In this document: in pieces, positions 1,356 to 40,067 of the stretch
How the letters are laid out: every line of letters starts with the position of its first letter
Numbering within the stretch: the first letter of the stretch is position 1
Assembly (NCBI RefSeq): GCF_002101295.1
Contig: NZ_CP020778.1
Span: 1,157,001 to 1,221,000, forward strand
Length of the DNA stretch: 64,000 nt
Direction: 5' to 3'
From: Candidatus Pelagibacter sp. RS40
GTDB lineage: Bacteria; Pseudomonadota; Alphaproteobacteria; Pelagibacterales; Pelagibacteraceae
The notes under the pieces: model-generated
The model's input: only the letters and a program-made list of their open reading frames with translations
What the model was told of the DNA's origin: nothing
Database searches by the model: none
Translations under genes and position numbers: made by a program

Positions 1356-1365
1356 ATATTTCAGA

Positions 1366-1394
1366 TTTGGCGACTATATATTATAGTCGCCAAA
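1366..1394 (+). promoter_or_regulatory. Intercistronic hairpin between binding protein and permease
   Basis: TTTGGCGACTATA (1366-1378) pairs perfectly with TATAGTCGCCAAA (1382-1394) around a 3-nt loop, and three more pairs (1363-1365 with 1396-1398) are possible past a one-base bulge. The 3' arm ends 4 nt before the permease ATG at 1399. There is no T-run, so this looks like a 3'-end stabiliser and/or translation damper rather than a terminator. No Shine-Dalgarno sequence is visible for the permease. Confidence 0.8.
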
Positions 1395-1398
1395 ATCT

Positions 1399-24873: not shown

Positions 24874-25737
24874 ATGAGTTCAAATAAACTAAGAGTACGA
24901 AGAAGCTTTATATTTACACCAGGTTTAAAACCAGAGATGTTTCCAAAAGCAATCGAGTCTGGGGCCGACATGGTTTGTATAGAATTAGAGGATGGTATAG
25001 CGCTTAAGGATAAGAATGATGCAAGAAATAACACACTTAACGCTTTAAAAATGCTCAAGATTAAAGAAGATGTAGAACTGGTTGTAAGAGTTAATTGTCA
25101 AAGAACAAAACATGGATTATTAGATTTAGAGGCCTTTGCCTCAAGTAAAATAAACATCGGTGCAATAATGCTTCCCAAAGTAAAAACACCAGATGAAATA
25201 AAATTTATCGATGATCTGCTTACAGATTGTAATTTAGATACAGACCTTCATGTAATAATGGAAACGAACGAGGCTTTAGAATGTATTTATGACATTGCCC
25301 ATGCAAGCAAAAGAACGGTGGCATTGTATTTTGGAGGTGTTGATATGGCAGCTGAGCTTAGATGTGAGCATAAATGGGAAAATTTAGTATACGCAAGATC
25401 AAAATTAGTTCATGCAGGCGCAAGTATTGGGGTTGATGTAATAGATGTTCCATACTTAGATTTAGAAAATATGGATGGAATGAAAAAAGAGGCAGAGCTT
25501 GCAAAAAATCTTGGTTTTACAGGCAAAGGCTCTATCCATCCTAAACAGATAGGAATTTTAAATGAGGTTTTTACACCTTCAAAAGAAGAAATTAGTCATG
25601 CAAAAAAAATTGTAGATCAATTTAACGAGTCAAATACAGGCTTGGTTGTAATTGATGGCAAACTTATAGAAAAACCTGTTTTAAGAGAAATGCAAAGAAA
25701 AATATTAATTGCAGAAAAAATAAACAAAAATTATTAA
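24874..25737 (+). CDS. HpcH/HpaI-type CoA ester lyase (CitE / malyl-CoA lyase-like)
   Basis: A 287-aa TIM-barrel lyase of the CitE family, splitting 3-hydroxyacyl-CoA thioesters such as malyl-, methylmalyl- or citramalyl-CoA. Seen: RRSFIFTPGLKPEMFPKAIESGADMVCIELEDGI (entry to the barrel, CoA-binding Arg and metal-site Glu), IMLPKVKTPDEI near 95, and GSIHPKQIGILNEVF near 227, the C-terminal CoA signature. The citrate lyase alpha and gamma subunits are absent, so a free-standing CoA lyase is more likely. It abuts the convergent serine hydrolase with no gap. It could feed glyoxylate, acetyl-CoA or pyruvate into central metabolism. Confidence 0.87.
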   Translation: MSSNKLRVRRSFIFTPGLKPEMFPKAIESGADMVCIELEDGIALKDKNDARNNTLNALKMLKIKEDVELVVRVNCQRTKHGLLDLEAFASSKINIGAIMLPKVKTPDEIKFIDDLLTDCNLDTDLHVIMETNEALECIYDIAHASKRTVALYFGGVDMAAELRCEHKWENLVYARSKLVHAGASIGVDVIDVPYLDLENMDGMKKEAELAKNLGFTGKGSIHPKQIGILNEVFTPSKEEISHAKKIVDQFNESNTGLVVIDGKLIEKPVLREMQRKILIAEKINKNY

Positions 25738-26904
25738 TTAAAAATTATTATTAACTATTTCATCCATCATATTAATCATATCTTTCTTATAATTTTCATC
25801 AGTTCCAGAATCTGTTTCAATTACAGAGAAATAGCTTGCAACAACTCCATTATTTAAATTTATTGCCAAAAATTGACCTCCAAGACCTGAATGGCCAATC
25901 CAATTACCACATTTCATTGTTGAATTTGAGTACTCTAAAAATTTATTTTTTGATAATTCCATATATTTAGTCCCTTTATTTTTTAATGTTTCATCTAAGA
26001 AAAATTCAGAACCGATTTTTCTATTCAATACCCCATGCCCTTTTCTTGAAAAAAGAAGACCATATCTCAAAAAATCTCTAGAGATTAAACATCCGCCTCC
26101 CGAAATCCAAGGCATGCTAAATCTATCTGTCCCCATATACATGGCATCTTCAAAACCTGCTGCTTCTACAGCCTCCAGCAACCATTCTTTAAGTTTTTTT
26201 CCACTTACTTTTTCAACTAATAAACCCATTACATCTGTATTTGCTGATTTGTAATGAGATAAATCTGAAGTATTTTTTAAATCTTGATCCGTCAAAGATT
26301 TAATAGAATTTAAAAATTCTTCCTGGCTTACTTTATAATTTAAATCATCGGGTAGTCTCCAACCACAAACTGGTTCATGTAAAAATGAAGAGGTATATGG
26401 ATCTGTATAATCTTCGCTATAAGCATTTTGAATATTCATATCTAAAACATCTTGAATCGTTGCAGATGCATACCCAGAGCCAATATTAGGTAAATATTCT
26501 GAAACTTTTTTATTTAATTCAATAATTTTTTTTTCAACAAGTTCTCCAATAAATAAATTAATAAACATTTTTGTGATAGACATTATTGTTTGTGGGGTAT
26601 TTTCGTTAAAATCATCTGCATATTTTTCATATAGAATGTCTTGATCTTTGCCTACCAACAATGAGCAAAAATATTTATGATTTATCATTTTATTTACTGA
26701 TGGAATTTTTTCTATCTTGTCATTATATTTTTGGTTTAATTTTAATACATGATCAGATCTTAGAAGTAGACCATATCTGTTAATTTTATGTAAATTTCTA
26801 TAACCCTCTCTTCTTGTTTCTGGTAAATACCATTTTGGTTTATTATCTCTTATAATTTTAAGCGTAGGATTTAATTCACTAATTATTTTTTTATCTTTTT
26901 TCAT
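25738..26904 (-). CDS. Serine beta-lactamase-like hydrolase
   Basis: A 388-aa hydrolase of the class C beta-lactamase/esterase group (COG1680). The active-site SxxK is in QTIMSITKMFINL near 110, YKSANTDVMG near 212 supplies the YxN-like motif, and GHSGLGGQFLAI near 350 corresponds to the HxG third motif. No signal peptide is evident, which argues against a secreted lactamase and for an esterase, amidase or transesterase. It lies 10 bp downstream of the second homocysteine-methyltransferase-like gene and is the last gene of that minus-strand group. Confidence 0.85.
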   Translation of the reverse strand: MKKDKKIISELNPTLKIIRDNKPKWYLPETRREGYRNLHKINRYGLLLRSDHVLKLNQKYNDKIEKIPSVNKMINHKYFCSLLVGKDQDILYEKYADDFNENTPQTIMSITKMFINLFIGELVEKKIIELNKKVSEYLPNIGSGYASATIQDVLDMNIQNAYSEDYTDPYTSSFLHEPVCGWRLPDDLNYKVSQEEFLNSIKSLTDQDLKNTSDLSHYKSANTDVMGLLVEKVSGKKLKEWLLEAVEAAGFEDAMYMGTDRFSMPWISGGGCLISRDFLRYGLLFSRKGHGVLNRKIGSEFFLDETLKNKGTKYMELSKNKFLEYSNSTMKCGNWIGHSGLGGQFLAINLNNGVVASYFSVIETDSGTDENYKKDMINMMDEIVNNNF

Positions 26905-26914
26905 TTTTTAAATT

Positions 26915-27832
26915 TTATTTTAAAACTGAGATTGCACTTATTTTATCGGGACCAACTCCACAACATCCACCTATAATCTGAGCTCCATTAGATATCCAAT
27001 TTTTCGCTTCCTCTAAATATTTAGACGGGGATATATCATTAATTAATTTCCAATGAGGTTTTTCAAAGTAACCATTATTTGGATATGCACCTACAATCCC
27101 TTTGTGAACTCTTTTTAAAATTTTAACCGCTTCACCTGTAACTTTGATATCTGAATGTGCAACTAAAATTGGTCCTTCATGCATTTTACTAAATTTAGAT
27201 AGGGAATTTTCTAAAGTATCGTAAAATTTTGCTTTTGAATTAGTTATACTTTCTTGATAGCCGTGCATTAATATATTTTCGTCTTCATTTATTGCACAAG
27301 AAATAGATAGCCAGATAGGTAATTTAACATTTTTTGAGCACTCAATAATATTTTCAACAGTTCTATCCTTTGACGTCATGGCTTCTAAAATGATTAGGTC
27401 TACACCTGCTTCTTTTAAAATTTTTAAATGTTCATTAAAACCAGGTTTAATATCCTCTTCTGATAGTTTATCCCAACTGCCTGAAGTTGAAACTGATCCT
27501 GCAACAGCTATTTCCCTTTTAGAATGGTTAGCAGCCTTTAAAGCTAATTTTACACTTTCATCATTCCAAGCTTTCGTAAATTGATCATATCCGTACTCTT
27601 TCATTGATATCGGTGTAATAGCGTAGGTATTTGAAGTAATGATATCTGCACCAGCATTAATATAATTTTCATGTACTTGAAGCATTTTATCTGGGTCATC
27701 TATTGCACATTTTCCAGCCCACAGATCTTTATCCATCTTTGCGCCTGAACTTTCTAACTCTCCTCCATTTCCACCATCTAAAATAACTACACCATTAGCT
27801 TTTAATTTTTTCTCTACAAGATTGTATGACAT
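26915..27832 (-). CDS. Homocysteine S-methyltransferase family protein (second copy)
   Basis: A 305-aa paralogue of the protein at 23763-24755: VVILDGGNGGELESSGAKM, HENYINAGADIITSNTYAITP, LSISCAIN and the zinc motif IGGCCGVGPDKI. Both carry the Cys residues expected for zinc and homocysteine activation. It starts 3 bp after the VOC gene stop and belongs to a minus-strand operon of CoA-transferase, aldehyde dehydrogenase, VOC, this gene and a serine hydrolase. Two diverged copies within 4 kb suggest two methyl donors, or a role beyond methionine synthesis. Confidence 0.85.
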   Translation of the reverse strand: MSYNLVEKKLKANGVVILDGGNGGELESSGAKMDKDLWAGKCAIDDPDKMLQVHENYINAGADIITSNTYAITPISMKEYGYDQFTKAWNDESVKLALKAANHSKREIAVAGSVSTSGSWDKLSEEDIKPGFNEHLKILKEAGVDLIILEAMTSKDRTVENIIECSKNVKLPIWLSISCAINEDENILMHGYQESITNSKAKFYDTLENSLSKFSKMHEGPILVAHSDIKVTGEAVKILKRVHKGIVGAYPNNGYFEKPHWKLINDISPSKYLEEAKNWISNGAQIIGGCCGVGPDKISAISVLK

Positions 27833-27835
27833 TTA

Positions 27836-28219
27836 TTATTGATTATTTGTAAAAGCGCAGATTTTATTTCCATCTAAGTCACGAATGTAAGAATAGTAAA
27901 CTCCAGAGCCTTCGGGTCTCTCACCACCAGATCCTTCGCTAGCACCTCCCAACTTAATCCCAACATCATGAAACTTATCAACCAATTCTCTTGAACTTGT
28001 TTGAAATGAAATTTGAGATCCATTACCAACTGTTGCTTTTTCTTTGTTAAAAGGTTTTGTGACGTAAAATTCTATTTTTCCGTTGCTATTTTTTTGAGAA
28101 TATCCAGCGCACACTTCATCTTTTTCAGTTCTCTCTAAATCTAAAACTTCCAACAATTCATCATAAAACTTAATAGACTGATCTAAATTGTTTGTGCCAA
28201 CCATAACATAGCCAATCAT
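27836..28219 (-). CDS. VOC family (glyoxalase/bleomycin-resistance-like) protein
   Basis: A 127-aa protein with the beta-alpha-beta-beta-beta vicinal-oxygen-chelate fold in two modules. It opens with GYVMVGTNNLDQSIKFYDELLEVLDL and ends with GVYYSYIRDLDGNKICAFT, where the terminal metal-site acid normally lies. Family roles include isomerases, lyases and dioxygenases. It is embedded between the aldehyde dehydrogenase (1 bp upstream) and the methyltransferase-family gene, so it probably acts on an intermediate of the same pathway. Confidence 0.83.
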   Translation of the reverse strand: MIGYVMVGTNNLDQSIKFYDELLEVLDLERTEKDEVCAGYSQKNSNGKIEFYVTKPFNKEKATVGNGSQISFQTSSRELVDKFHDVGIKLGGASEGSGGERPEGSGVYYSYIRDLDGNKICAFTNNQ

Positions 28220-28220
28220 A

Positions 28221-29654
28221 TTATTTTGGCCAACCAGTTACAGCTTTAACTTCTAGAAATTCATGTAATCCCCAAACACCACCTTCACGTCCATTTCCAG
28301 ATTGTCTATATCCTCCAAATGGAGCACCAGGGTCTGCACCGTTTCCATTTACATAAATTGTTCCAGCCTTAAGCTTCTTGGCAACTCTTTTTGCTTTTTC
28401 TTTATCCTCAGTTTGTAAATAATTACCTAATCCATACTCAGTTTCATTTACAATTTGAATTGCTTCTTCTTCCGTCTCAAAAGGTATTATAGATAAAACC
28501 GGACCAAATATTTCTTCTTTTGCAATACGCATATCATTTGTTACATCGGTAAAAATAGTTGGTTTAATAAAATAGCCTTTGTTCATTCCGTTAGGTAATT
28601 CCGGTCCACCTGCTGCAAGAGTTGCTCCTTCGTCAATTCCACTTTGAATGAGGTTTATTATTTTATTGTATTGAATTTTAGATACAACAGGACCTATATG
28701 ATCTCCTTTTTTTGAAGCATGGTCGACCTTTATCAAATTTGCTTCTTCGACAGCCTCTTTAACTGCTCTTTCATATATTGATTTTTCAACGAGCATTCTT
28801 GTAGGTGCATCACATGACTGACCTGAGTTACTCATTACGTTTCTGATACCATCTCTCACAGCGTTAGGGTAGGAGTCTGCAAAAACAATATTTCCACCTT
28901 TTCCACCTAATTCTAGGCACACTCTTTTGATTGTATCAGCTCCATTTTTTAAAATTAATTTACCTGCCCTTGTTGATCCTGTGAAAGATACTAAATCAAT
29001 ATCAGGATGTGATGAAATATCCGTTCCAACACCAGCGCCATCCCCATTAACAAGATTAAATACACCCGCTGGAAAGCCTGCTTCATCAATCATTTCCGCA
29101 AACAACATTGCTGACATTGGGGCTATTTCTGAAGGTTTATGAATCATTGTACAACCTGTTGCAAAGGCTGGAACAACTTTTAAAGCTATTTGATTGATTG
29201 GCCAGTTCCATGGAGTAATTAATCCACAAACTCCAATTGGTTCATAACAAATATGATTATTAGACTTTGGTTCAAATTGCTCATCAAACTTAAATTCTTT
29301 TAATCTTTTTATAAAATCTTCAAGATGAGATTGTCCACTTGATGTTTGAACGTCTGTTGCCCAATCCATTGGGGCCCCCATTTCCATAGATATAGCATCA
29401 GCCATCTCTCCATATCTTTTTTTATAAATAGAAAGTAATTTTTCTAATAAATTTAATCTTTCATCCTTTGAACTTTCGCTCCAGCTAATCAAAGCTTTTT
29501 TGGCTGCCGAGACTGCAGCATTAGTATCCTCTGTTGATCCTAATGATATAGTTGCAAACGCTTCCTCTGTTGAAGGATTAATTACCTCATAATCATTTGG
29601 TTTAGTTGGTGAAACCCATTGACCGTTAATATAAAATTTTCTTTTATCTATCAT
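28221..29654 (-). CDS. Aldehyde dehydrogenase
   Basis: A 477-aa NAD(P)-dependent aldehyde dehydrogenase. Seen: ITPWNWPINQIALKVVPA near 140 (cofactor cradle), SFTGSTRAGKLI near 225, catalytic Glu in RVCLELGGKGGNIVFAD near 248, catalytic Cys in SNSGQSCDAPTRMLVE near 282, and EEIFGPVLSIIPF near 383. The length is standard. It follows the CaiB/BaiF CoA-transferase by 22 bp and precedes the VOC gene by 1 bp. Substrate unknown; the setting suggests a small carbonyl from an imported carbon source. Confidence 0.92.
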   Translation of the reverse strand: MIDKRKFYINGQWVSPTKPNDYEVINPSTEEAFATISLGSTEDTNAAVSAAKKALISWSESSKDERLNLLEKLLSIYKKRYGEMADAISMEMGAPMDWATDVQTSSGQSHLEDFIKRLKEFKFDEQFEPKSNNHICYEPIGVCGLITPWNWPINQIALKVVPAFATGCTMIHKPSEIAPMSAMLFAEMIDEAGFPAGVFNLVNGDGAGVGTDISSHPDIDLVSFTGSTRAGKLILKNGADTIKRVCLELGGKGGNIVFADSYPNAVRDGIRNVMSNSGQSCDAPTRMLVEKSIYERAVKEAVEEANLIKVDHASKKGDHIGPVVSKIQYNKIINLIQSGIDEGATLAAGGPELPNGMNKGYFIKPTIFTDVTNDMRIAKEEIFGPVLSIIPFETEEEAIQIVNETEYGLGNYLQTEDKEKAKRVAKKLKAGTIYVNGNGADPGAPFGGYRQSGNGREGGVWGLHEFLEVKAVTGWPK

Positions 29655-29676
29655 AATTATAAAGCTTATATATTAG

Positions 29677-30819
29677 TTAACTAAATTCTTTAAGTATTTT
29701 ATCGCGGTGCTCATCAAGATCTGGAATATCTCCTCTTATTTTTTCATCTTTGTATGTAGACATTTTTATAGGGTTTCCCGCAGATTTAAACTCTCCAATT
29801 TTCTTATGAAAAGATTTTACAATCATATTTCTCTCTTTAATTTGTGGATTTTCTACAGCTTGTTTAATATTAAAAATTGGACCGCACGGTATTTTTAAGT
29901 TTTCCATAACTTTAATCCATTCATCCGTATTTTTATGCTGAAGTTTATCCTCAATAATAAATTTTAGTTTATCAATATTTTGAGATCTTAAAGAGTTTGT
30001 TTTATACATTTCATCAGTTGCAATGTTAGGTATTTCAAGAACTTCACATAAGCTTTTAAATAATTTGTCGTTACCAGCTGCAATAATCAAAAAACTGTCC
30101 TTTGTTTTAAAAGCTTCAAAAGGAGCAATGGATGGATGTCTCGAACCCATTGGTTCTGGGATTTCATTTTTTGAAAGATATCTAGCAATAGCATTTTCTA
30201 AAATTGCTATTTGACAATCTAGCATTGATACATCAATGAAAGCACCTTTACCTGTTTTTTGTCTATCATACAAAGCTGCATTAATACCAATTGCCGTAAA
30301 TAAACCAGCTGTAATATCCCCAATTGACGTCCCAACTCTTGTTGGTTCTGAATTTGGATGTCCAGTAACACTCATTAATCCACCCATACCTTGAACAACC
30401 ATGTCATATGCTGGCAATTCTTTAAGCGGACCTGTTTGACCAAAACCTGAAGCTGATGCATAAATTAATTTAGGATATTTTTTACTTACTTCATTCCAAC
30501 CAAAACCCCATTTTTCTAAAGTGCCTGGTTTAAAATTTTCAACTAATATGTCTGCTTTTGCCAAAATTTTTTCAAAAATTTTTTTATCGTCTTCATTTTT
30601 TAAATTAAGAGCGATACTTTCTTTTCCTCTATTCAAGGACATAAAATATGCAGAGTAATCATCAATGAAAGGACCAAATCCTCTCGAGTCATCTCCAATT
30701 TCAGGAGCTTCAATTTTAATAACTCTCGCTCCAAGATCAGATAAAATCATTGTACAGTAAGGACCTACCAAAACCCTTGTTAAATCAACAACTAATAAAT
30801 TTTTTAATGGACCATCCAT
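29677..30819 (-). CDS. CaiB/BaiF family (class III) CoA-transferase
   Basis: A 380-aa class III CoA-transferase. It opens with the family start LVVDLTRVLVGPYCTMILSDLGARVIKIEAPEIGDDSRG, then SLNRGKESIALNLK, and carries the catalytic Asp in VGTSIGDITAG near 170, which forms the acyl-aspartyl intermediate. It exchanges CoA between carboxylates. It heads the minus-strand operon and is divergent (86 bp) from a TRAP operon that includes malonyl-CoA decarboxylase. A joint pathway of uptake, CoA activation and decarboxylation is plausible but unproven. Confidence 0.9.
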   Translation of the reverse strand: MDGPLKNLLVVDLTRVLVGPYCTMILSDLGARVIKIEAPEIGDDSRGFGPFIDDYSAYFMSLNRGKESIALNLKNEDDKKIFEKILAKADILVENFKPGTLEKWGFGWNEVSKKYPKLIYASASGFGQTGPLKELPAYDMVVQGMGGLMSVTGHPNSEPTRVGTSIGDITAGLFTAIGINAALYDRQKTGKGAFIDVSMLDCQIAILENAIARYLSKNEIPEPMGSRHPSIAPFEAFKTKDSFLIIAAGNDKLFKSLCEVLEIPNIATDEMYKTNSLRSQNIDKLKFIIEDKLQHKNTDEWIKVMENLKIPCGPIFNIKQAVENPQIKERNMIVKSFHKKIGEFKSAGNPIKMSTYKDEKIRGDIPDLDEHRDKILKEFS

Positions 30820-30905
30820 AATAAATATAATGACATATGGTTATATTGACTCTTATTAAGAAGTTCAATTTAATTACATTTTTAAACTAATGAGGAGAAA
30901 ATAAC

Positions 30906-31916
30906 ATGTTAAGAAAATTATCTTTAATTTTCACTTCAGTAATTTTAACTTTTTCTTTAATCGGATCTGCTTTAGCAGTAACTCTTAAAGCTAGCCACCA
31001 ATGGCCTGGCACACAAAGAGCAGATGGTTCATACGATCCAAGACATGAAATGGTTCAAATTATTGCAGATGAGGTTAAAAAAGCTAATGTTGATTTAGAT
31101 ATAAGAATTTATCCTGCTAAATCACTTTATAAACCAAAAGAACAATGGAAACCCATGACAACTGGTCAGTTAGATATTTCAGCTTTCCCTTTAGCATATG
31201 CTTCTAAATTCCATCCAGAATTTGATGCAACACTTATGCCGGGAACAGTAAAAAATCACGACCACGCATTAAGATTTAATAAAGGTCCAATGATGACCGA
31301 AATTAAAAAAATAATCAATGATGCTGGAGTAGTGGTTCTTTCAGATGCATGGTTAGGTGGTGGATTTGCATCTAAAACTAAATGTATAAAAAATCCAAGT
31401 GATGCAAAAGGACAAGTAATGAGAGCTGCAGGAAAAGCATTTAACCAAATGTTAGAAGCAGCAGGAGCAGGTATTCAGAGTATGCCATCATCAGAAATTT
31501 ACACAGGTCTTCAAACCGGTGTACTAACTGGTGCTAACACTAGTTCAGGAAGTTTTGTAAGTTACAAAATTTATGAACAGGTCTCATGTGCAACACCTCC
31601 AGGAAAATTTGGTCTATGGTTTATGTATGAACCAATTTTGATGTCAAAGAAAAGTTTTGATGCATTAAATTCAAAACAACAAGATGCTCTTATGAAAGCT
31701 GGGAAAGTTGCTGAAAAATATATGACTGCACAAGTTGAAAATTTAGATAAAAAATTTGAGGATGCTTATAAGGCAGCGGGTGTTAAGTTAGTATATATGG
31801 ATGAAAAAGATCATGCAGCATGGGTAGAGATTGCGAAACAATCTTCTCATAAAGCATTTGCTGAGAAAGTTCCAGGTGGTGATAAGTTAATGGAAATGGC
31901 TTTAGCAGTTAAATAA
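30906..31916 (+). CDS. dctP: TRAP transporter substrate-binding protein (DctP family)
   Basis: A 336-aa periplasmic receptor with a signal peptide ending GSALA|V near 24. Seen: LKASHQWPG, ADGSYDPRHEM, and the conserved ligand-carboxylate Arg in KGQVMRAAGKAFNQML near 175, followed by SSEIYTGLQTGVLTGANT. A strong ribosome site (GAGGAGA) precedes the ATG. The small and large membrane subunits follow past a terminator-like hairpin. The ligand is an organic anion; the downstream malonyl-CoA decarboxylase hints at a malonate-like diacid, but this is inference. Confidence 0.9.
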   Translation: MLRKLSLIFTSVILTFSLIGSALAVTLKASHQWPGTQRADGSYDPRHEMVQIIADEVKKANVDLDIRIYPAKSLYKPKEQWKPMTTGQLDISAFPLAYASKFHPEFDATLMPGTVKNHDHALRFNKGPMMTEIKKIINDAGVVVLSDAWLGGGFASKTKCIKNPSDAKGQVMRAAGKAFNQMLEAAGAGIQSMPSSEIYTGLQTGVLTGANTSSGSFVSYKIYEQVSCATPPGKFGLWFMYEPILMSKKSFDALNSKQQDALMKAGKVAEKYMTAQVENLDKKFEDAYKAAGVKLVYMDEKDHAAWVEIAKQSSHKAFAEKVPGGDKLMEMALAVK

Positions 31917-31930
31917 ACTGGTATATAAAG

Positions 31931-31966
31931 AACCCCTATTTATTGAATATAAGTAGGGGTTTTTTT
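31931..31966 (+). terminator. Attenuator-like hairpin between dctP and dctQ
   Basis: AACCCCTA (31931-31938) and TAGGGGTT (31954-31961) form a perfect 8-bp stem with a 15-nt loop. Seven T residues (31960-31966) run straight into the ATG at 31967. This is a textbook intrinsic terminator shape placed inside an operon, so partial read-through is required for the permease genes. The GGGG that could act as a weak ribosome site is inside the stem. Confidence 0.8.
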
Positions 31967-32461
31967 ATGAAAAATAAATACTTAAAATTCTGTGATCATA
32001 TTGCCAAAGCTTGTGGAGCTTTTGCTGTATTAGCTTTACTTTTATCAATCCTTGTTATTGTAGAACTAGTTTTTGAAAGATATTTCTTCCAAAGACCAAT
32101 TACTTGGCAAACAGAGTTGGTTACCATGCTTCTAGTAGCATCTACATTTATTGGAAGTGCTTATGTATTAAGTGAAAAAGCGCATGTGAGCATGGAATGG
32201 ATTTATGATTTTTTATCAAAGAAAAATATTTTAAGACTTAAAATTTTTACATCTTTAGTAAGTTTATTATTTTTCTTAATTTTATTTTATTTTGGATTTT
32301 TAATGGTAGAGGAAGCTTTTACAAAAAATTATTCTACAGGAACTGTATGGGATCCACCTCTTTGGATTCCTTATTCTTCAATGATGATAGGTGCTGCATT
32401 AATGATCTTGCAATATATTGCAGAAATAATCAAACTTAACGACGAACAGGATAGTAATTAA
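31967..32461 (+). CDS. dctQ: TRAP transporter small membrane subunit (DctQ)
   Basis: A 164-aa protein with four membrane segments. FERYFFQRPITWQTELVTMLLVASTFIGSAYVLSEKAHVSMEW is the typical DctQ stretch ('W..E....L..W..f.G.....'). The upstream in-frame TTG at 31943 would add eight residues, but it lies in the hairpin loop, so ATG at 31967 is preferred. The TAA overlaps the dctM ATG (TAATG at 32459-32463). Confidence 0.88.
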   Translation: MKNKYLKFCDHIAKACGAFAVLALLLSILVIVELVFERYFFQRPITWQTELVTMLLVASTFIGSAYVLSEKAHVSMEWIYDFLSKKNILRLKIFTSLVSLLFFLILFYFGFLMVEEAFTKNYSTGTVWDPPLWIPYSSMMIGAALMILQYIAEIIKLNDEQDSN

Positions 32462-33792
32462 TGGACCCTTTATTAATTGCAGTAATAGTTGCCGTTTTTA
32501 CACTTATAGTTTTATTTTCTGGAATACCTATTGCTTTTGGTTTGAGCTTCGTATCAATTGCTCTATTAGTTGCTTTTGAAGGTTTTCAAATGTTAGATGT
32601 ATTTGCAGAGACCTTTTATGCAGGTTTGAATTCTTTTGTGCTTCTTTCAATTCCAATGTTTATTTTAATGGGAATGGCTGTAGCCAATTCACCAGCGGGA
32701 AAAGATTTATATACAGGGTTGGACAGATGGCTTTGGCGAGTACCTGGTGGCTTAGTCATTTCAAATATTGGTGCTTGCTCAATTTTTGCTGCTTTAAGCG
32801 GTTCAAGTCCAGCAACGTGTGCCGCAATAGGTACTATGGGGATCCCAGAAATGAGAAAAAGGGGATATTCTGATCAAATTGCTACTGGAACAATTGCTGC
32901 TGGAGGGACACTTGGAGTTTTAATTCCTCCAAGCATTGTTTTAATTGTTTATGGAATTGCAACGGGAACATCAATAGGAAGATTATTTCTTTGTGGGTTA
33001 GTTCCTGGTTTTATGCTGGCAGGTATGTTTGCTATCTGGGCGCTTATACATAGTTATTTTATAGATAAAGATTCAGCAAAAGCTTTAAGCAATCGTAAAA
33101 GACCTACATTAAAAGAAAAGCTTGAAGTATTACCGAGGATCTTACCATTTTTAGCAATTATAGCTGGCGTTCTTTATGTGTTATATGGTGGCGTTGCTAC
33201 ACCATCCGAAGCGTCAGGCGTAGGGGCATTTTTAGTTTTTGTATTAATAGCAGTAGTTTACAAAATTTATCAGCCGAAAAAAATATGGAACATTGTTAAA
33301 GTTTCCATGAAAGAAAGTGTAATGATAATGTTTATCATTGCAGCCTCATATCTTTTTGCATTTACACTTTCACAATTGTACGTAACTCAGTCTTTAGCAC
33401 AAAGCATGGTAGATATTAGCTCAAACAAATGGGTAGTATTTATATTAATTAATATTTTTCTTTTAATAGCTGGTTTCTTCTTGCCACCTGTAGCTGTTAT
33501 CGTAATGACTTCTGCTATATTATTACCAGTAATTACTACATTAGGTTTTGATCCTTATTGGTTTGCAATTGTATTTACAATAAACATGGAAATAGGATTA
33601 ATAACCCCACCCGTTGGATTAAATCTTTATATAATAAAAGGAATTACCCCAGACGTGAGTTTATCAGAAATTTTAAAAGGCTCTATACCGTTTATGATTA
33701 TAATGGCTTTAGCCATATTAATTTTGTGTATTTTTCCCGAAATCGTGACATGGCTACCTGATAAAATAATGGGTAAACCTCTTGGATACTAG
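32461..33792 (+). CDS. dctM: TRAP transporter large permease subunit (DctM)
   Basis: A 443-aa permease with about twelve hydrophobic segments. ALSGSSPATCAAIGTMGIPEMRKRGYSDQIATGTIAAGGTLGVLIPPSI is the diagnostic DctM region with its sodium/substrate-site glycines, and TINMEIGLITPPVGLNLYI is its counterpart in the second half. It is translationally coupled to dctQ. The 3' end overlaps the TTG start of dusA by 11 bp. Confidence 0.93.
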   Translation: MDPLLIAVIVAVFTLIVLFSGIPIAFGLSFVSIALLVAFEGFQMLDVFAETFYAGLNSFVLLSIPMFILMGMAVANSPAGKDLYTGLDRWLWRVPGGLVISNIGACSIFAALSGSSPATCAAIGTMGIPEMRKRGYSDQIATGTIAAGGTLGVLIPPSIVLIVYGIATGTSIGRLFLCGLVPGFMLAGMFAIWALIHSYFIDKDSAKALSNRKRPTLKEKLEVLPRILPFLAIIAGVLYVLYGGVATPSEASGVGAFLVFVLIAVVYKIYQPKKIWNIVKVSMKESVMIMFIIAASYLFAFTLSQLYVTQSLAQSMVDISSNKWVVFILINIFLLIAGFFLPPVAVIVMTSAILLPVITTLGFDPYWFAIVFTINMEIGLITPPVGLNLYIIKGITPDVSLSEILKGSIPFMIIMALAILILCIFPEIVTWLPDKIMGKPLGY

Positions 33793-34786
33793 AAATAAAA
33801 TAAATCGAAAAATTTCTGTTGCACCAATGATGGATTGCACTGATCGGCATGATCGCTTCTTTTTGAGATTAATGAGCAAGAATGTGATGCTCTACAGTGA
33901 AATGGTTGCAACTAAATCTGCAATTCATGGAGACAGAAAAAAAATTTTATCATTTAGTCCGGAGGAGAAACCACTTGCGTTACAGGTTGGAGGTTCAAAT
34001 AAAGAGGAATTATCAGAAGTTGCAAAAATAGCTGAAGATATGGGTTATGACGAAATTAATATAAACTTAGGTTGCCCAAGCAAAAAGGTTCAAAAAAATA
34101 AATTTGGAGCTTGTTTAATGAAAGAACCTGAACTCGTTGCAGAATGCATAAATTCGATGGTTAATTCATGCAAAATACCTGTAACTGCTAAAACTAGAAT
34201 TGGTTTTGATGATGTTGAAAGTTTTGAATATTTGAACAATTTTATTAATAAAATACACAAAGCAGGGACAAAAACATTTATTTTGCATGCAAGAAAGGCG
34301 ATGCTTACTGGCTTATCACCAAAACAAAATTTAAATATACCTAAACTCAATTACAACATGGTTTATGAAATAAAAAAAGAAAATCCAAATTTAGAAATTA
34401 TAATTAATGGTGGTATTTCTAAAATTGAAGAAATCAAAAACCATATTTCTAAATGTGATGGAGTTATGATTGGAAGATCAATTTATCAAAATCCTTATTC
34501 ATTGGTTGATATAGAAAAAAACATATTCAATACAGAAATTATTCCAACAAGAGAACAAGTTGTAGAGAAACTTTTAGATTATGTTGATAAGGAGGTAAAG
34601 TTAGGAACTAAAGTAAATCATATAATGAGGCATACAGTTGGTTTATATCATGGCCAAGCTGGATCTAAAAACTGGAAAAGATATTTGAGTGATAATATGA
34701 TGGCTCGCGACTCTGATTTTCAAAAAGCAAAGCATATTATGAGCATTGTTCAAAATAATGAAAAAGCAATTCAAGCTAACTCATAA
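33782..34786 (+). CDS. dusA: tRNA-dihydrouridine synthase (DusA-like)
   Basis: A 334-aa FMN-dependent TIM-barrel enzyme that reduces uridine in the tRNA D-loop. Seen: ISVAPMMDCTDRHDRFFLRL (DusA-type start), LALQVGGSN, catalytic Cys region INLGCPSKKVQKNKFGACLM near 95-110, TAKTRIGFD, and IINGGI near 212. The start is TTG at 33782 inside the 3' end of dctM; no in-frame ATG occurs before the conserved APMMD motif. It is an odd companion in a transport operon, probably there by genome compaction. Confidence 0.9.
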   Translation: MDTRNKINRKISVAPMMDCTDRHDRFFLRLMSKNVMLYSEMVATKSAIHGDRKKILSFSPEEKPLALQVGGSNKEELSEVAKIAEDMGYDEININLGCPSKKVQKNKFGACLMKEPELVAECINSMVNSCKIPVTAKTRIGFDDVESFEYLNNFINKIHKAGTKTFILHARKAMLTGLSPKQNLNIPKLNYNMVYEIKKENPNLEIIINGGISKIEEIKNHISKCDGVMIGRSIYQNPYSLVDIEKNIFNTEIIPTREQVVEKLLDYVDKEVKLGTKVNHIMRHTVGLYHGQAGSKNWKRYLSDNMMARDSDFQKAKHIMSIVQNNEKAIQANS

Positions 34787-35622
34787 TGGATGTTTTAAAT
34801 TTTGGTGAAATTGTAAATTTATTACTGGTACTATCTATAGCCGCATCTGTTGCAGGCTTTATGGCAGGTTTATTAGGGGTTGGTGGTGGCATAATAATGG
34901 TGCCTGCTTTATATTATGCATTTACTGTCTTAGACTTTGATATTGCAACCAGAATGCATATTTCTGTTGGAACATCTCTAGCTATAATAGTTCCTACTTC
35001 AATAATATCAGCCAAAACCCACATGGAACACAAAGCTGTTGACGTAAATTTAGTAAAGTCTTTTGGAATTTTTATAGTTCTCGGTGTAATTGGAGGAACT
35101 TTTTTAGCAATTAATTTAAGAACATCCGATTTTATTTTATTTTTCTCTATAATGGCATTTATAGTTGGATTATTTTTTATATTTTTCAGAGATAAATTTT
35201 TAGAAAATCCAAAAAAAATAAAAGACTCAATTAAAAATATTTCAGGAGTGGCAGTTGGTTTTATTTCAGTCTTGCTGGGTATTGGTGGTGGATCCCTAAT
35301 GGTTCCATTTATGAGAACTTTTGGATACGATATTCGAAAATCAATTGGAACAGCTTCAGCAATTGGTATTTTGATTGCAATTAGCGGGACAATTACAATG
35401 ATAACAGGAGGAGAAATTATCAATAATATAAGCACACCTTATACTATTGGTTACATAAATTTATTTGGATTTATTGTTTTTGTGCCTGTGACGATGTTAA
35501 TGGCAAGAATAGGAGCAAAAGCAGTATATAAAATAGACAAGAAGTTATTAAGTAAAATTTTTGGATCTTTTCTAATTATTGTATCTATAAGATCTTTTAT
35601 TGAATATTTAAAAATAAGTTAA
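34786..35622 (+). CDS. TauE/SafE family anion exporter
   Basis: A 278-aa membrane protein with about eight hydrophobic segments and the two family glycine motifs, AGLLGVGGGIIMVPALYYAF near residue 25 and SVLLGIGGGSLMVPFMRTFGYDIRKSIGTA near 163. Members export sulfite, sulfoacetate or other organic anions. Its ATG overlaps the dusA stop (TAATG at 34784-34788). Presence in the first TRAP operon suggests it could expel a by-product of the imported compound; that remains inference. Confidence 0.88.
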   Translation: MDVLNFGEIVNLLLVLSIAASVAGFMAGLLGVGGGIIMVPALYYAFTVLDFDIATRMHISVGTSLAIIVPTSIISAKTHMEHKAVDVNLVKSFGIFIVLGVIGGTFLAINLRTSDFILFFSIMAFIVGLFFIFFRDKFLENPKKIKDSIKNISGVAVGFISVLLGIGGGSLMVPFMRTFGYDIRKSIGTASAIGILIAISGTITMITGGEIINNISTPYTIGYINLFGFIVFVPVTMLMARIGAKAVYKIDKKLLSKIFGSFLIIVSIRSFIEYLKIS

Positions 35623-35643
35623 AAAATAGTAAATCATTTAAAT

Positions 35644-36951
35644 ATGTTTAATTTAAAGGAAATAATTTCGTCAATAGCTGATGTTGGCCAAAAATTATTT
35701 AAAAAAAAAGAGCTTAAAAAAAATGATCTTGATACAATCCTTTCACTTTGTGGTGATTTATTGTCTACAAAGGGTGCTGCATTTGGTATCACAGTAGCAA
35801 GAGATATCACAGACTTATATTCCAGTCTTTCAAATGAAAACAAACTTCTATTTTTTAAAAAGATAAATGAAAAGTATAAACCCAGCCACACAGAAGTTTC
35901 CAAAGCAATTGAAGAATATCAAAGAACGCAAAATGACAAAAATTTATATAACTTATCTATTACATCCGAGGGACAGAGAAGAGAACTATTTAAAAGAATA
36001 AATATGTCTCCAAATGGAATATCAACAATTGTTTCTTTAAGAGAAGATTTGTTGAAAATTATAGACAAAAATAAAGATCTAATTCCTTTAGATGATGATT
36101 TGAGAGAATTATTTAAGTCATGGTTTAATCCAGGGTTTTTAAAACTTGAAAAAATTACCTGGGATACAAAAGCTGCGGTATTAGAAAAAATAATGAAATA
36201 TGAAAGAGTTCATGAGATTAAAGATATGGATGAACTAAAACGAAGATTAGGAGAAGACAGAAGATTTTTTGCATATTTCCATCCGGCTCTAGAAGATGAA
36301 CCGATTATTTTTGTTCAAGTTGCTTTAACTAATGGATTAGGAAAATCAATTCAGGAAATAACAAAACCTAGAACTGATGGTGATAAAAATTATGATACTG
36401 CAACATTTTACTCGATAAGTAATTGCCAAGATGGATTATCAAGAGTAACTTTAGGAAATTTTTTAATTAAAAGAGTTGTCTTTGAAATACAAGAAGAACT
36501 TCCAAATATTAAGAATTTTGGAACATTATCACCAATACCAGGTTTTAGAGATTGGTTTGTTAACTTGGATGAAAAATTGGTAAAAAATATTTTGGGAAAT
36601 ATTCCTTTAGAAAATATATCTTTTTTAAAATCTTCTAGTTTAAAAATAGGCGACACGAGAATAATATCAAATAAGAATGCTATATATAAATTGGTTGCTC
36701 ACTATTTAATGAATGAAAAAAATTTAAAACAATTGCCTATAAATGATGTTTGTAGATTTCATCTAGGAAATGGCGCAATAATCGATGATATAGTAATTAA
36801 TGCAAATATATCAGAAGTAGGTTTTAATAGATCTTTTGGTGTAATGGTAAACTATTTATATGAACTAAAAAATATTGAAAAAAATCACGAGGAATATATC
36901 AATAACAAGACAACAATAATATCAAACAAGGTAAAAAAATTAATTCAATAA
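35644..36951 (+). CDS. Malonyl-CoA decarboxylase
   Basis: A 435-aa malonyl-CoA decarboxylase, giving acetyl-CoA and CO2. Residues 1-135 form the helical N-terminal domain. The catalytic domain shows FFAYFHPALEDEPIIFVQVALTNGLG near 205-230, FYSISNCQDGLSRVTLGNFLIKRVV near 255-280, FGTLSPIPGFRDWF, and VCRFHLGNGAIIDDI near the end with the conserved His. The length fits bacterial members. It is 21 bp after the TauE gene, last in the TRAP operon. Together with the divergent CoA-transferase it could form a malonate or malonyl-ester route. Confidence 0.9.
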   Translation: MFNLKEIISSIADVGQKLFKKKELKKNDLDTILSLCGDLLSTKGAAFGITVARDITDLYSSLSNENKLLFFKKINEKYKPSHTEVSKAIEEYQRTQNDKNLYNLSITSEGQRRELFKRINMSPNGISTIVSLREDLLKIIDKNKDLIPLDDDLRELFKSWFNPGFLKLEKITWDTKAAVLEKIMKYERVHEIKDMDELKRRLGEDRRFFAYFHPALEDEPIIFVQVALTNGLGKSIQEITKPRTDGDKNYDTATFYSISNCQDGLSRVTLGNFLIKRVVFEIQEELPNIKNFGTLSPIPGFRDWFVNLDEKLVKNILGNIPLENISFLKSSSLKIGDTRIISNKNAIYKLVAHYLMNEKNLKQLPINDVCRFHLGNGAIIDDIVINANISEVGFNRSFGVMVNYLYELKNIEKNHEEYINNKTTIISNKVKKLIQ

Positions 36952-36953
36952 CC

Positions 36954-37154
36954 TTAATCTAATCCCCATTTTACTTTATTCCACACTCTTTCATGAAAAT
37001 AATAGAATAGTAGGGGAATGATAGAACCAATACCCAAAATACCAGCACCACTAAATGTCCCAGTATATATATATCCAAAAATCACCCAATAAATAAATAT
37101 AATTAACCTCCATGAAAATGTCTTGGCAACCGATCTCATTTTTTTATCTGCCAT
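36954..37154 (-). CDS. DUF2061 family small membrane protein
   Basis: A 66-aa protein starting MADKKMRSVAKTFSWRLI. The two hydrophobic segments and the sequence RSVAKTFSWRLI...FGY match DUF2061 membrane proteins of unknown function. The ATG at 37154 is chosen because AAGGAGAG lies just upstream of it on the minus strand; an upstream non-ATG start at 37178 would add eight residues and bury this site. The stop is 2 bp from the convergent malonyl-CoA decarboxylase stop. Confidence 0.75.
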   Translation of the reverse strand: MADKKMRSVAKTFSWRLIIFIYWVIFGYIYTGTFSGAGILGIGSIIPLLFYYFHERVWNKVKWGLD

Positions 37155-37248
37155 AACTCTCCTTTTTAATTTGTACAATTTAGAGACTAGATCTCTTTGT
37201 TTATTTTATATACCCTAATTTTATAAAAAAACTAACTAAGGACATAAT

Positions 37249-38223
37249 ATGAATAAATTTTTAAAAATAATTGTCGTTGTATTCTCATCATTCTTCTTGA
37301 GTTTCGCGGCTAATTCAGTCGAAGTAAAATTTGGACACGTAGGTAAACCTGGTTCACTTTTTTCTGCTTCAGTAGATCACTTTGCAAAACTTGCTAACGA
37401 AAGATTAGGAAGCAAAGGCAAAGTTTCTGTATTTGGTTCTTCACAACTTGGTAAAGATAAACAAGGAATGCAAAAACTAAAGCTAGGAACGGTTAATATG
37501 TGGTTACCATCATCAGTGATGGCATCTATTCATGATGAGTTTGGTGTATTTGATATGCCTTTTATTATTAAAGATAGAAAACATATGGCTAAAGTTGAAA
37601 AAAATGTTCTACCTGGAATGTTTAAAAATCTCGAGGAGAAAACAGGATATAAAGTAATAGCTGTTTGGGAAAATGGATTTAGACATATAACAAATAACAC
37701 TAGACCAATTAATACTCCAAATGATTTAAAAGGAATTAAATTAAGAACACCCAAGTCAAAATGGAGAGTTAAAATGTTCCAATCATATGGTGCAAACCCA
37801 ACTCCGATGTCATTTTCTGAAGTATTCACTGCTTTAAAAACTGGAACAATGGATGGACAGGAAAACCCATATGCACAAATAGCTAGTGCTAAGTTTCAAG
37901 AAGTTCAAAAATATTTATCAATTACAGGTCACGTTTATACACCTGCTTATGTAACTGTTCATAAGGATCACTGGAGCAAGTTACCTTCAGATGTACAAGA
38001 TATTTTAGAAAAGGCTGCTCAAGATACACAAAAGTTTGTTTATGCTGAAGCTGCTAAACTTGAAAAATCTTTATTAAAAGTAATTAAAGATGCTGGCGTC
38101 CAAGTCAATGAAGCGGACAAAGGTGCTTTTATTGCAGCTAGTAAAGGGATCTATGATCAGTTTGGATCAGAAGTTCCTACAGGTGGCGCATTAGTCGATA
38201 AAGTATCAGCTTTAGCAAATTAA
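37249..38223 (+). CDS. dctP: TRAP transporter substrate-binding protein (second system)
   Basis: A 324-aa periplasmic receptor with a signal peptide ending AANS|VE near 23. Seen: GKPGSLFSASVDHFAKLANERLGSKGKV, ENGFRHITNNTRPI near 140, the ligand Arg in LKGIKLRTPKSKWR near 163, and SFSEVFTALKTGTMDGQENP near 185-205, which is the DctP hallmark. A ribosome site (AAGGA) precedes the start. Permease subunits, a crotonase and a CoA-transferase follow, so the ligand is likely a carboxylate that is converted to a CoA ester. Confidence 0.92.
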   Translation: MNKFLKIIVVVFSSFFLSFAANSVEVKFGHVGKPGSLFSASVDHFAKLANERLGSKGKVSVFGSSQLGKDKQGMQKLKLGTVNMWLPSSVMASIHDEFGVFDMPFIIKDRKHMAKVEKNVLPGMFKNLEEKTGYKVIAVWENGFRHITNNTRPINTPNDLKGIKLRTPKSKWRVKMFQSYGANPTPMSFSEVFTALKTGTMDGQENPYAQIASAKFQEVQKYLSITGHVYTPAYVTVHKDHWSKLPSDVQDILEKAAQDTQKFVYAEAAKLEKSLLKVIKDAGVQVNEADKGAFIAASKGIYDQFGSEVPTGGALVDKVSALAN

Positions 38224-38243
38224 TTTAATTTAATTTATCTTAT

Positions 38244-38266
38244 CAGGCCCTCATTCAGAGGGCCTG
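38244..38266 (+). promoter_or_regulatory. Intercistronic hairpin between dctP and dctQ (second system)
   Basis: CAGGCCCTC (38244-38252) pairs perfectly with GAGGGCCTG (38258-38266) around the 5-nt loop ATTCA. No T-run follows, so it is more a stabiliser or translation damper than a terminator. The 3' arm ends 8 nt before the dctQ ATG at 38275, and its AGAGGG, the only Shine-Dalgarno-like sequence, is inside the stem. Confidence 0.8.
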
Positions 38267-38274
38267 TACATAAT

Positions 38275-38784
38275 ATGAAATTACAGAACTTTATTAAGAC
38301 GTACGAAAAAATACTAAAACTAATACTGTTTATAATGATGGTGGCATTGGCAGTAACAGTTTTACTTGGAGTTACTTTTCGTTTTGCAGGTAGTGCACTA
38401 GTTTGGTACGATGAAGTTGCTGCAGTACAACTTGCATGGATTACCTATTATGGTTCAGCCTACGCTGCATTAAAAGGTTCTCATATAAGTGTTCCGAGTA
38501 TATTTAAGGCATTTCCATTAGCACTTAGAAAAATTTTCTTCGTAGTCTCTAAAATAGTTGTTTATGGTTTCTTACTATTACTAGCATACTACGGATATTT
38601 AGTATTAACTCTTATTACTGGTGAAACCTTGGTAACATTAGAATGGGTTCCACAACCATTTGTCCAATCTGTCATTCCAATTGCATCATGTTTATTTATT
38701 TTATCTGAAACTTTAAGAATTCCAGAGGACTACAGAAATTTAGTTCTCCAAACAACAGGTGACGAGCAGACAGGAGATATTTAA
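38275..38784 (+). CDS. dctQ: TRAP transporter small membrane subunit (second system)
   Basis: A 169-aa four-TM DctQ protein. FAGSALVWYDEVAAVQLAWITYYGSAYAALKGSHISV carries the typical W-x2-E region and the following Gly-rich turn. The start lies just past a perfect hairpin, and its TAA overlaps the dctM ATG (TAATG at 38782-38786). It should anchor and assist the large permease of this second TRAP system. Confidence 0.9.
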   Translation: MKLQNFIKTYEKILKLILFIMMVALAVTVLLGVTFRFAGSALVWYDEVAAVQLAWITYYGSAYAALKGSHISVPSIFKAFPLALRKIFFVVSKIVVYGFLLLLAYYGYLVLTLITGETLVTLEWVPQPFVQSVIPIASCLFILSETLRIPEDYRNLVLQTTGDEQTGDI

Positions 38785-40067
38785 TGATAATTCTTACAAT
38801 GTTTGCTGTCCTTTTACTTTTATTATCTATAAATGTACCTATCGCTATAGGCCTTGCTGTAACAACAATTATCGCAATGGTATTGAAGACAGGAACAAGT
38901 TTTTTAATTGATACTGCAATCGTTATGTTTGATGGATCAATGAAATTTCCATTAATTGCTATCCCATTATTTATCCTGGCAGGATCAATTATGAATAGTG
39001 CTGGCATATCTAGAAGACTAATAGCCTTTGCCTCAGCTCTTGTTGGATTTATCAAAGGCGGTTTAAGCATGATCAACATTGCAACTTCAATGTTTTTTGC
39101 TGAAATTTCGGGATCAGCAGTTGCTGATGTTGCTGCCCTTGGATCTATTTTAATTCCTGCAATGAAGAAAAAAGGTTATCCAGGTCCTTTTGCTGCAGCA
39201 GTCACTTCTTCTTCAGCATCTCTAGCAATTATTATTCCACCATCAATACCAATGATTGTTTATGCTGTAATGGCCCAAAGTTCCGTAGTGCAATTATTTG
39301 TAGCTGGAATAGTTCCTGGTGTAATAGGTGGTTTTTTCCTAATGTTGGCTGCATATATCACTGCAAGACGAAAAAACTTTCCTGTTGAAGAAACATTTAA
39401 TATTCCAAATGTAAAGAAAACTGCAAAAGATGCAGCATTAGCATTTTTATTACCTATTATTATATTAGGTGGAATTTTTGGCGGAGTTGTAACTGCAACA
39501 GAAGGCGCAGGTTTAGCAGTTGTAGCGTCTTTGGTAATTGGTTTTATTTATAAAGAAATAGATTTTAAAAGATTGTACGAGTCCGCGTGTGAAGGTGCAA
39601 TTCAAACAGCTTCAGTTATGTTATTGGTAGCAGCATCTGTATTATTAGGTGAATTTTTAACAATTGAGCAAATTCCACAAAAAGTTGCTGAGTCGATCAT
39701 AGATTTTACAAATAATAAATATGCAGTTTTGGGAATTTTAAACGTATTTCTATTAGTAATTGGTTTCTTTTTACATTCGGTTGCCGCAATAATTTTAACA
39801 GTTCCAATTGTAATGCCTTTAGTTAATGCTGTAGGCATTGACCCTGTGCATTTTGGAATCATAGTGACTTTAAATTTAGCAATTGGTCAACAAACCCCAC
39901 CAGTAGCAAGTGTTCTGGTTACAGCATGTTCTGTTGCTAAAGCTGATATTTGGGATGTTACAAGATCAAATATATCTTTTATTTGTGTTTTGTTAGTATT
40001 GTTAATGTTAGTAACATATGTTCCAGCTATACCGATGACATTAGTTGAATTTTTTTATAGGAGCTAG
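38784..40067 (+). CDS. dctM: TRAP transporter large permease subunit (second system)
   Basis: A 427-aa DctM permease. EISGSAVADVAALGSILIPAMKKKGYPGPFAAAVTSSSASLAIIIPPSIPMIVY is the first family signature and VTLNLAIGQQTPPVASVL the second. The usual twelve or so membrane segments are present. The crotonase gene begins at the next base after its TAG, with GGAG as ribosome site inside its last codons, so uptake and catabolism are translationally linked. Confidence 0.93.
   Translation: MIILTMFAVLLLLLSINVPIAIGLAVTTIIAMVLKTGTSFLIDTAIVMFDGSMKFPLIAIPLFILAGSIMNSAGISRRLIAFASALVGFIKGGLSMINIATSMFFAEISGSAVADVAALGSILIPAMKKKGYPGPFAAAVTSSSASLAIIIPPSIPMIVYAVMAQSSVVQLFVAGIVPGVIGGFFLMLAAYITARRKNFPVEETFNIPNVKKTAKDAALAFLLPIIILGGIFGGVVTATEGAGLAVVASLVIGFIYKEIDFKRLYESACEGAIQTASVMLLVAASVLLGEFLTIEQIPQKVAESIIDFTNNKYAVLGILNVFLLVIGFFLHSVAAIILTVPIVMPLVNAVGIDPVHFGIIVTLNLAIGQQTPPVASVLVTACSVAKADIWDVTRSNISFICVLLVLLMLVTYVPAIPMTLVEFFYRS

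Follow-up and report, generated by a model that had tools for sequence, protein, structure and literature searches.

A conserved terminator-like hairpin between dctP and dctQ in Candidatus Pelagibacter sp. RS40, and its counterparts behind other genes of solute-binding proteins

The window (i.e., the whole stretch of 64,000 nucleotides of Candidatus Pelagibacter sp. RS40 that was analysed) contains an operon for a TRAP transporter, in which the gene of the solute-binding protein (SBP), dctP, precedes those of the two membrane subunits, dctQ and dctM. Genes for Dus, TauE and malonyl-CoA decarboxylase (MCD) are closely spaced on one strand in the window, and the names of all six products (DctP, DctQ, DctM, Dus, TauE, MCD) are backed by Pfam. 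In other loci (L037-L116), the gene order 3' of dctM alternates between dus-tauE(-mcd) and mcd-dus. In the window, a small gene on the minus strand (36957-37178), encoding a DUF2061 membrane protein, lies between the malonyl-CoA decarboxylase gene and a second dctP. The dctP gene ends with TAA at 31914-31916, and the dctP-dctQ spacer (31917-31966, 50 nt) is, on reading the sequence, filled by one hairpin. A TTG at 31943 was considered as the start of dctQ and rejected, since relatives share the ATG at 31967 and the upstream extension is unconserved. The features are the following:

30906-31916, plus strand: dctP, TRAP solute-binding protein gene, first in the operon (Pfam PF03480 DctP, E-value 5.7e-41)
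31922-31930, plus strand: flank TATATAAAG, conserved past the stem (alignment, flank shuffling, promoter score)
31931-31943, plus strand: 5' arm of the hairpin, AACCCCTATTTAT (sequence, fold, pair counts)
31944-31948, plus strand: loop TGAAT, 5 bases, differing in sequence and length among relatives (fold, alignment)
31949-31961, plus strand: 3' arm, ATATAAGTAGGGGTT, containing the Shine-Dalgarno (SD)-like GGGG at 31956-31959 (sequence, fold, opening energy)
31960-31966, plus strand: T7 run up to the start codon (sequence, tails of 110 loci)
31967-32461, plus strand: dctQ, small TRAP membrane subunit (Pfam PF04290; ATG at the identical position in 110/110 loci)
32461-33792, plus strand: dctM, large TRAP membrane subunit, 3' of the hairpin (Pfam PF06808)

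An earlier note on this DNA had described a terminator-like hairpin within the TRAP operon, made of an 8-bp stem plus seven T residues and with its T-run ending at the dctQ start codon. Sequence, fold and Pfam gene names agree with this description, the T7 run (31960-31966) standing directly before the ATG; stem and seven T are both present, except that they cannot be counted separately, two of the T lying in both. The 8-bp stem (AACCCCTA/TAGGGGTT, 31931-31938 with 31954-31961) extends unbroken to 13 bp (31931-31943 with 31949-31961, one G-T pair included), and AAAG at 31927-31930 is able to pair with T62-T65, which yields 17 bp when the A-U pairs with the T-run are counted. The remainder of the TATATAAAG flank may serve either in pairing with the start codon or as a -10-like box.

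The hairpin has an RNAfold energy of -21.4 kcal/mol (z -4.9), equalled by 0 of 200 shuffles, and its d-score lies between 7.2 and 22.5 according to the point chosen for cutting the stem, positive values being on the terminator side. It is not among the entries of a consensus terminator scan of the window, probably because pairing by the A-tract consumes the T-run. When matches to riboswitch or attenuator families were sought, no Rfam family reached its gathering score within 25000-40000. Folds of three stretches gave single stem-loops only, with no alternative anti-terminator fold among them, which makes partial termination that sets protein ratios seem more apt than a switch governed by the carbon source. 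The list of open reading frames holds no small minus-strand gene of at least 60 aa over 31917-31966. A dispersed or REP-like repeat was rejected as well, because the core pattern is present in a single copy in the genome.

Orthologous loci were gathered in two ways: 30 full loci came from a DctP search of 101 related genomes, and 80 more, all titled Pelagibacteraceae or Candidatus Pelagibacter, from scanning contigs. These 80 are the best of 425, so that distant relatives are under-represented. The resulting 110 loci include the window copy (L001) and some genomes twice (e.g., L002 and L084). Conservation of the hairpin before orthologous dctQ genes, which the earlier note had put forward as a check, is complete in this set, as the hairpin was found in 110/110 loci, window included, representing 56 distinct spacers. 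All 110 spacers feature CCCCT...AGGGG followed by a T-rich tail of 7-10 bases leading to the ATG; at least six T come directly behind GGGG in 106 loci, and the last base of the tail is a T in 98 loci, while 1-3 other bases intervene in 12. The T-run is interrupted by an A in L027-L030, and L027 has a negative d-score. Beyond the core stem, TATATAAA at 31922-31929 is nearly invariant outside L027-L030, unlike the first five bases of the spacer, which are variable in the alignment.

Among loci, 13 to 19 bases separate CCCC from GGGG, and loop sequences differ. In the alignment of the 56 spacers, 98.4% of the pair cells are standard pairs, and compensatory double changes occupy 14 cells versus 2.6 in shuffles, with every slid control lower. 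The pairs having such a double change are only three (a number reached by 60 of 500 shuffles), because most stem columns are invariant. For comparison, the median identity to the window at four-fold degenerate sites of dctP is 0.553 (109 loci). Stem columns that are invariant while four-fold sites of the neighbouring gene are about 55% identical imply that the stem is held by selection.

The window contains two further hairpins at equivalent junctions:

1356-1398, plus strand: second SBP-to-permease hairpin, without T-run (z -6.4; SBP_bac_3 upstream, permease downstream)
38224-38274, plus strand: third SBP-to-permease hairpin, in the second dctP-dctQ spacer, without T-run (z -4.9)

Among the 14 co-directional neighbours of the window with spacers of at least 15 bases, the SBP-to-permease spacers fold strongly in 3/3 cases (z -6.4, -5.0 and -4.9), versus 0/11 for the others, which are all at z -0.5 or higher (one of these 11, 36952-37248, contains the minus-strand DUF2061 gene). 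At the level of the genome, five DctQ genes each lie behind an SBP gene, and their spacers carry strong hairpins in 5/5 cases, with unrelated stems. L032 repeats the layout of the window (CCCCGCAT...ATGCGGGG, TTTTTCTC, then ATG), L034 has its hairpin and T-run placed mid-spacer, and the hairpins of L035 and L036 have no T-run. Using the fold of the first 70 bases past the stop codon as a uniform measure, we then considered 17 SBP genes of the genome, belonging to the families PF00497, PF13416, PF13458, PF04069 and PF12849, or to PF03480 as found through DctQ neighbours: 15 of the 17 show a hairpin at z -3.0 or lower, again with unrelated stems, and those of ABC importers behave like those of TRAP transporters. 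Two of these SBP hairpins, L117 and L238, also have no T-run. Where the next gene on the same strand is an identified transporter component, a hairpin is found in 11 of 12 cases, the exception being L120, which is followed by a permease gene and, together with L123, makes up the SBP genes devoid of hairpin. The L120 spacer runs over 212 bases behind the SBP stop, unlike other junctions. As for the remaining neighbours, the gene behind L118 has no Pfam match, and the hairpins of L122 and L239 are each met by a convergent gene, a setting in which a terminator would be expected in any case. At L240 (oriented 2436-2822), a strong hairpin stands behind an OpuAC-type SBP gene, and a MORN-repeat gene comes next instead of a permease gene.

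Whether the hairpin goes with dctQ or with the SBP gene can be read from a genus sample of 20 junctions, hand-picked for different dctQ types and with recurring orthologs: hairpins at z -2.2 or lower occur in 14/14 dctQ behind an SBP gene versus 0/6 others, therefore the hairpin goes with the SBP gene, not with dctQ. The SBP was identified by Pfam in 9 of the 14 and by eye from the C-terminus in 5 (L154, L157, L161, L168 and L170, in which the upstream fragment has no Pfam match), whereas upstream of the six hairpin-less dctQ lie DctM (two), GpsA (one), an unassigned membrane-like protein (one) and a divergent gene (two); in L167, the upstream gene is without a Pfam match. A class-wide sample of 37 rows shows the hairpin in 9/9 Pelagibacteraceae rows (z -5.0 or lower). 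For the 28 other rows, an HMM built from five sequences called an upstream DctP in 17 and none in 10, while one had no upstream ORF; of the 17 dctP-dctQ junctions so detected, 5 reach z -2.5 or lower, 8 are weaker and 4 have spacers of 0-4 nt. For two short loci of this sample, L189 and L192, the reading position was a guess, and they are given no weight. A general rule across Alphaproteobacteria is thus only partly seen. Within this genome and genus, SBP genes do follow a rule, of which the hairpin of the window is one local instance rather than a peculiarity of its operon. As a separate observation, the SBP stop in L209-L215 and L217 is directly followed by an extra small inverted repeat, TTTCAGT...ACTG(A/G)A, placed ahead of the terminator-like hairpin.

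In our interpretation, to which we give a probability of about 0.8, the hairpin would act as a partial internal terminator, would stabilise the 3' end and would keep the SBP above the permease. Briefly, RNA polymerase would transcribe dctP, after which some polymerases would stop at the hairpin and its T-run, yielding a monocistronic dctP mRNA with its 3' end shielded by the stem, whereas those reading through would produce a dctP-dctQM(-dus...) mRNA; the outcome would be binding protein in excess over the membrane subunits. What is observed is a structure under selection that is confined to SBP-to-permease junctions and recurs with unrelated stems; that it terminates transcription, how efficiently it does so and which protein ratio results are inferences. 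The earlier note had gone further, to a full terminator on whose read-through dctQM and the genes for Dus, TauE and MCD would depend, a stronger reading that is qualified by the varying gene order behind dctM and by a putative internal promoter (see below). Moreover, four hairpins of the genome have no T-run (L035, L036, L117 and L238), hence termination is not a function common to all, and 3'-end protection of the SBP mRNA is likely to be the one that these hairpins share.

The same hairpin might act twice, by terminating transcription and, in the scarce read-through mRNA, by making translation of dctQ poor through burial of its start codon and ribosome site. We regard this proposal as tentative, the odds being somewhat against it. 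The earlier note had remarked that the only SD-like GGGG is hidden, and this GGGG (31956-31959) is indeed paired, the mean unpaired probability of the ribosome site being 0.07. Of 53 starts in the window, that of dctQ has the highest opening energy (19.45 vs. a median of 4.1 kcal/mol), ranks 2 and 3 being the other two SBP-to-permease starts; however, the hairpins without T-run (38275 and 1399) are nearly as occluding, which means that occlusion accompanies any hairpin placed there. The distance from GGGG to ATG is 7-10 in 110/110 loci, and the unpaired probability of the AUG is 0.318 with the real flanks versus 0.553 with shuffled flanks (lower in 60 of 66 distinct sequences). An unrelated ABC family, the orthologs of L119, behaves similarly (0.226 vs. 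0.44, lower in 27 of 28), although these counts are not independent, because the sequences are related. L032 and L119 likewise have their T-run at the permease ATG or close to it, and L119 orthologs have a T-rich tail of 7-11 bases reaching the permease ATG in 28/28 readable loci (30 were fetched, two of which end at or near a contig edge); yet such an overlap of T-run and start could arise from very short spacers without selection. In addition, the L119 family has CGCCC in its 3' arm and no SD, so that hiding the SD is not a shared feature. The idea that these hairpins generally serve to carry an SD in their 3' arm was rejected, since 3' arms differ among junctions. On the modelled folds, a second brake on dctQ translation is plausible. 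A wider claim, which we consider rather unlikely, would be that Pelagibacteraceae have merged an internal terminator and the start of the permease gene into a single hairpin, which would end most SBP transcripts and, in read-through mRNA, would lock the ribosome site and AUG via the conserved AT-rich flank; about 50 bases would then set the SBP:permease ratio twice, in a layout that would have arisen separately in TRAP and ABC operons and been kept by selection.

The conserved flank could also be taken as the sign of an internal promoter, with TATATAAA (31922-31929) as the -10 box of a separate dctQM transcript and the terminator merely dividing two units. A transcript begun within the 5' arm would be without the hairpin, and the RNA from 31938 onward does fold at only -6.9. 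The near-invariance of TATATAAA behind five variable bases speaks in favour of such a promoter, even though pairing of the flank with the T-run and AUG accounts equally well for the conservation. Over 42 distinct segments, the mean of the best sigma70-like scores, taking a -10 close to the stem, is 9.1 of 12, versus 7.4 in shuffles, and the best match is TTAGCA or TTGGCA, 16 bases, then TATAAA in 20 segments. TATATAAA with either hexamer 16 bases upstream scores 9-10 of 12, its -35-like partner being weak. However, the -35-like bases sit in conserved dctP codons, the second commonest best match (12/42) consists of other hexamers (TGGAAA with TAAAAT), the best partner shifts among loci, and a promoter scan of the window, in which a T was demanded at the sixth -10 position, has no plus-strand promoter there. 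Nor was a comparable box seen by eye in L032, L035 and L117. We therefore hold an internal promoter to be improbable.

An equally low probability goes to a hairpin that is protective only, i.e., one that does not terminate and whose stem, once the long mRNA has been cleaved, stops 3' exonucleases and thereby stabilises the dctP part: the four hairpins of the genome that occupy the same position without a T-run are in line with it, whereas the T-run kept at the window hairpin (at least six T behind GGGG in 106/110 loci) is not. Finally, a palindromic protein site in the DNA is conceivable in that the sequence is an inverted repeat, yet such an operator was rejected as very improbable on the varying distance between its arms (a fixed half-site distance was tested for and is absent, the CCCC-GGGG spacing being 13 to 19 bases), and it also sits badly with a T-run on one side only, with paired bases that change together while arm sequences differ, and with the unrelated stems found in the same place at other junctions.

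Bacteria of the SAR11 type are scavengers that rely on abundant binding protein. If the hairpins do set the excess of SBP over transporter in these genomes with few regulators, this ratio would be readable from short spacers over thousands of genomes and could be checked with existing transcriptomes. In the present genome, coverage is predicted to fall at 31960-31966, as well as at 14 other SBP genes.

How does this hairpin compare with known systems? Riboswitch expression platforms exist in which the terminator overlaps the ribosome-binding site, and they resemble the present case in that a single stem is able to terminate transcription as well as to hide the ribosome site, but the stretches folded here showed no aptamer or competing fold, nor was there any Rfam match in 25000-40000. 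Intercistronic hairpins that stabilise the upstream mRNA are known from the malE-malF REP and the puf operon. Like them, the hairpin of the window stands between an abundant and a scarce product of one operon; unlike them, it has a T-run, and its core pattern is single-copy in the genome instead of belonging to a REP family.

Our literature search, in which most subscription journals were missing, led to a sole direct precedent, concerning cellulolytic Clostridia (Wu et al. 2022, PMC9045158). It brought up nothing describing such hairpins for Pelagibacter or for TRAP operons, which is weak evidence of their absence from the literature. According to the article on Clostridia, stem-loops behind the SBP genes of ABC importers are partial internal terminators there, with efficiencies of 20.7-96.1% in a reporter and termination above 90% for the types with more than five U, while in several of them it made a difference whether the U-tract was paired with 5' bases; termination by such elements is seen with a reporter in Ruminiclostridium. 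In its structural features, the hairpin of the window is of their kind: it is a single stem-loop with a long stem, at the 5' end of its operon, in the spacer right behind an SBP gene and before the gene of a translocator; a U-rich tract follows the stem (T7 in the window) and can pair with the A-rich 5' flank, no anti-terminator fold having been seen in the three stretches folded; and such hairpins are tied to SBP-permease junctions over other operon spacers. With more than five U, it would fall into their type I. It differs in belonging to a TRAP rather than an ABC importer, in occurring in Pelagibacteraceae, and in a T-run that touches the start codon of the permease gene, with the ribosome site within the stem; in the text of PMC9045158, the words Shine-Dalgarno, ribosome, start codon and translation initiation are all absent. 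Altogether, the class of mechanism is already known from these Clostridia, and what the present locus adds to it is a TRAP case in SAR11, a near genome-wide rule and the fusion with a start codon.
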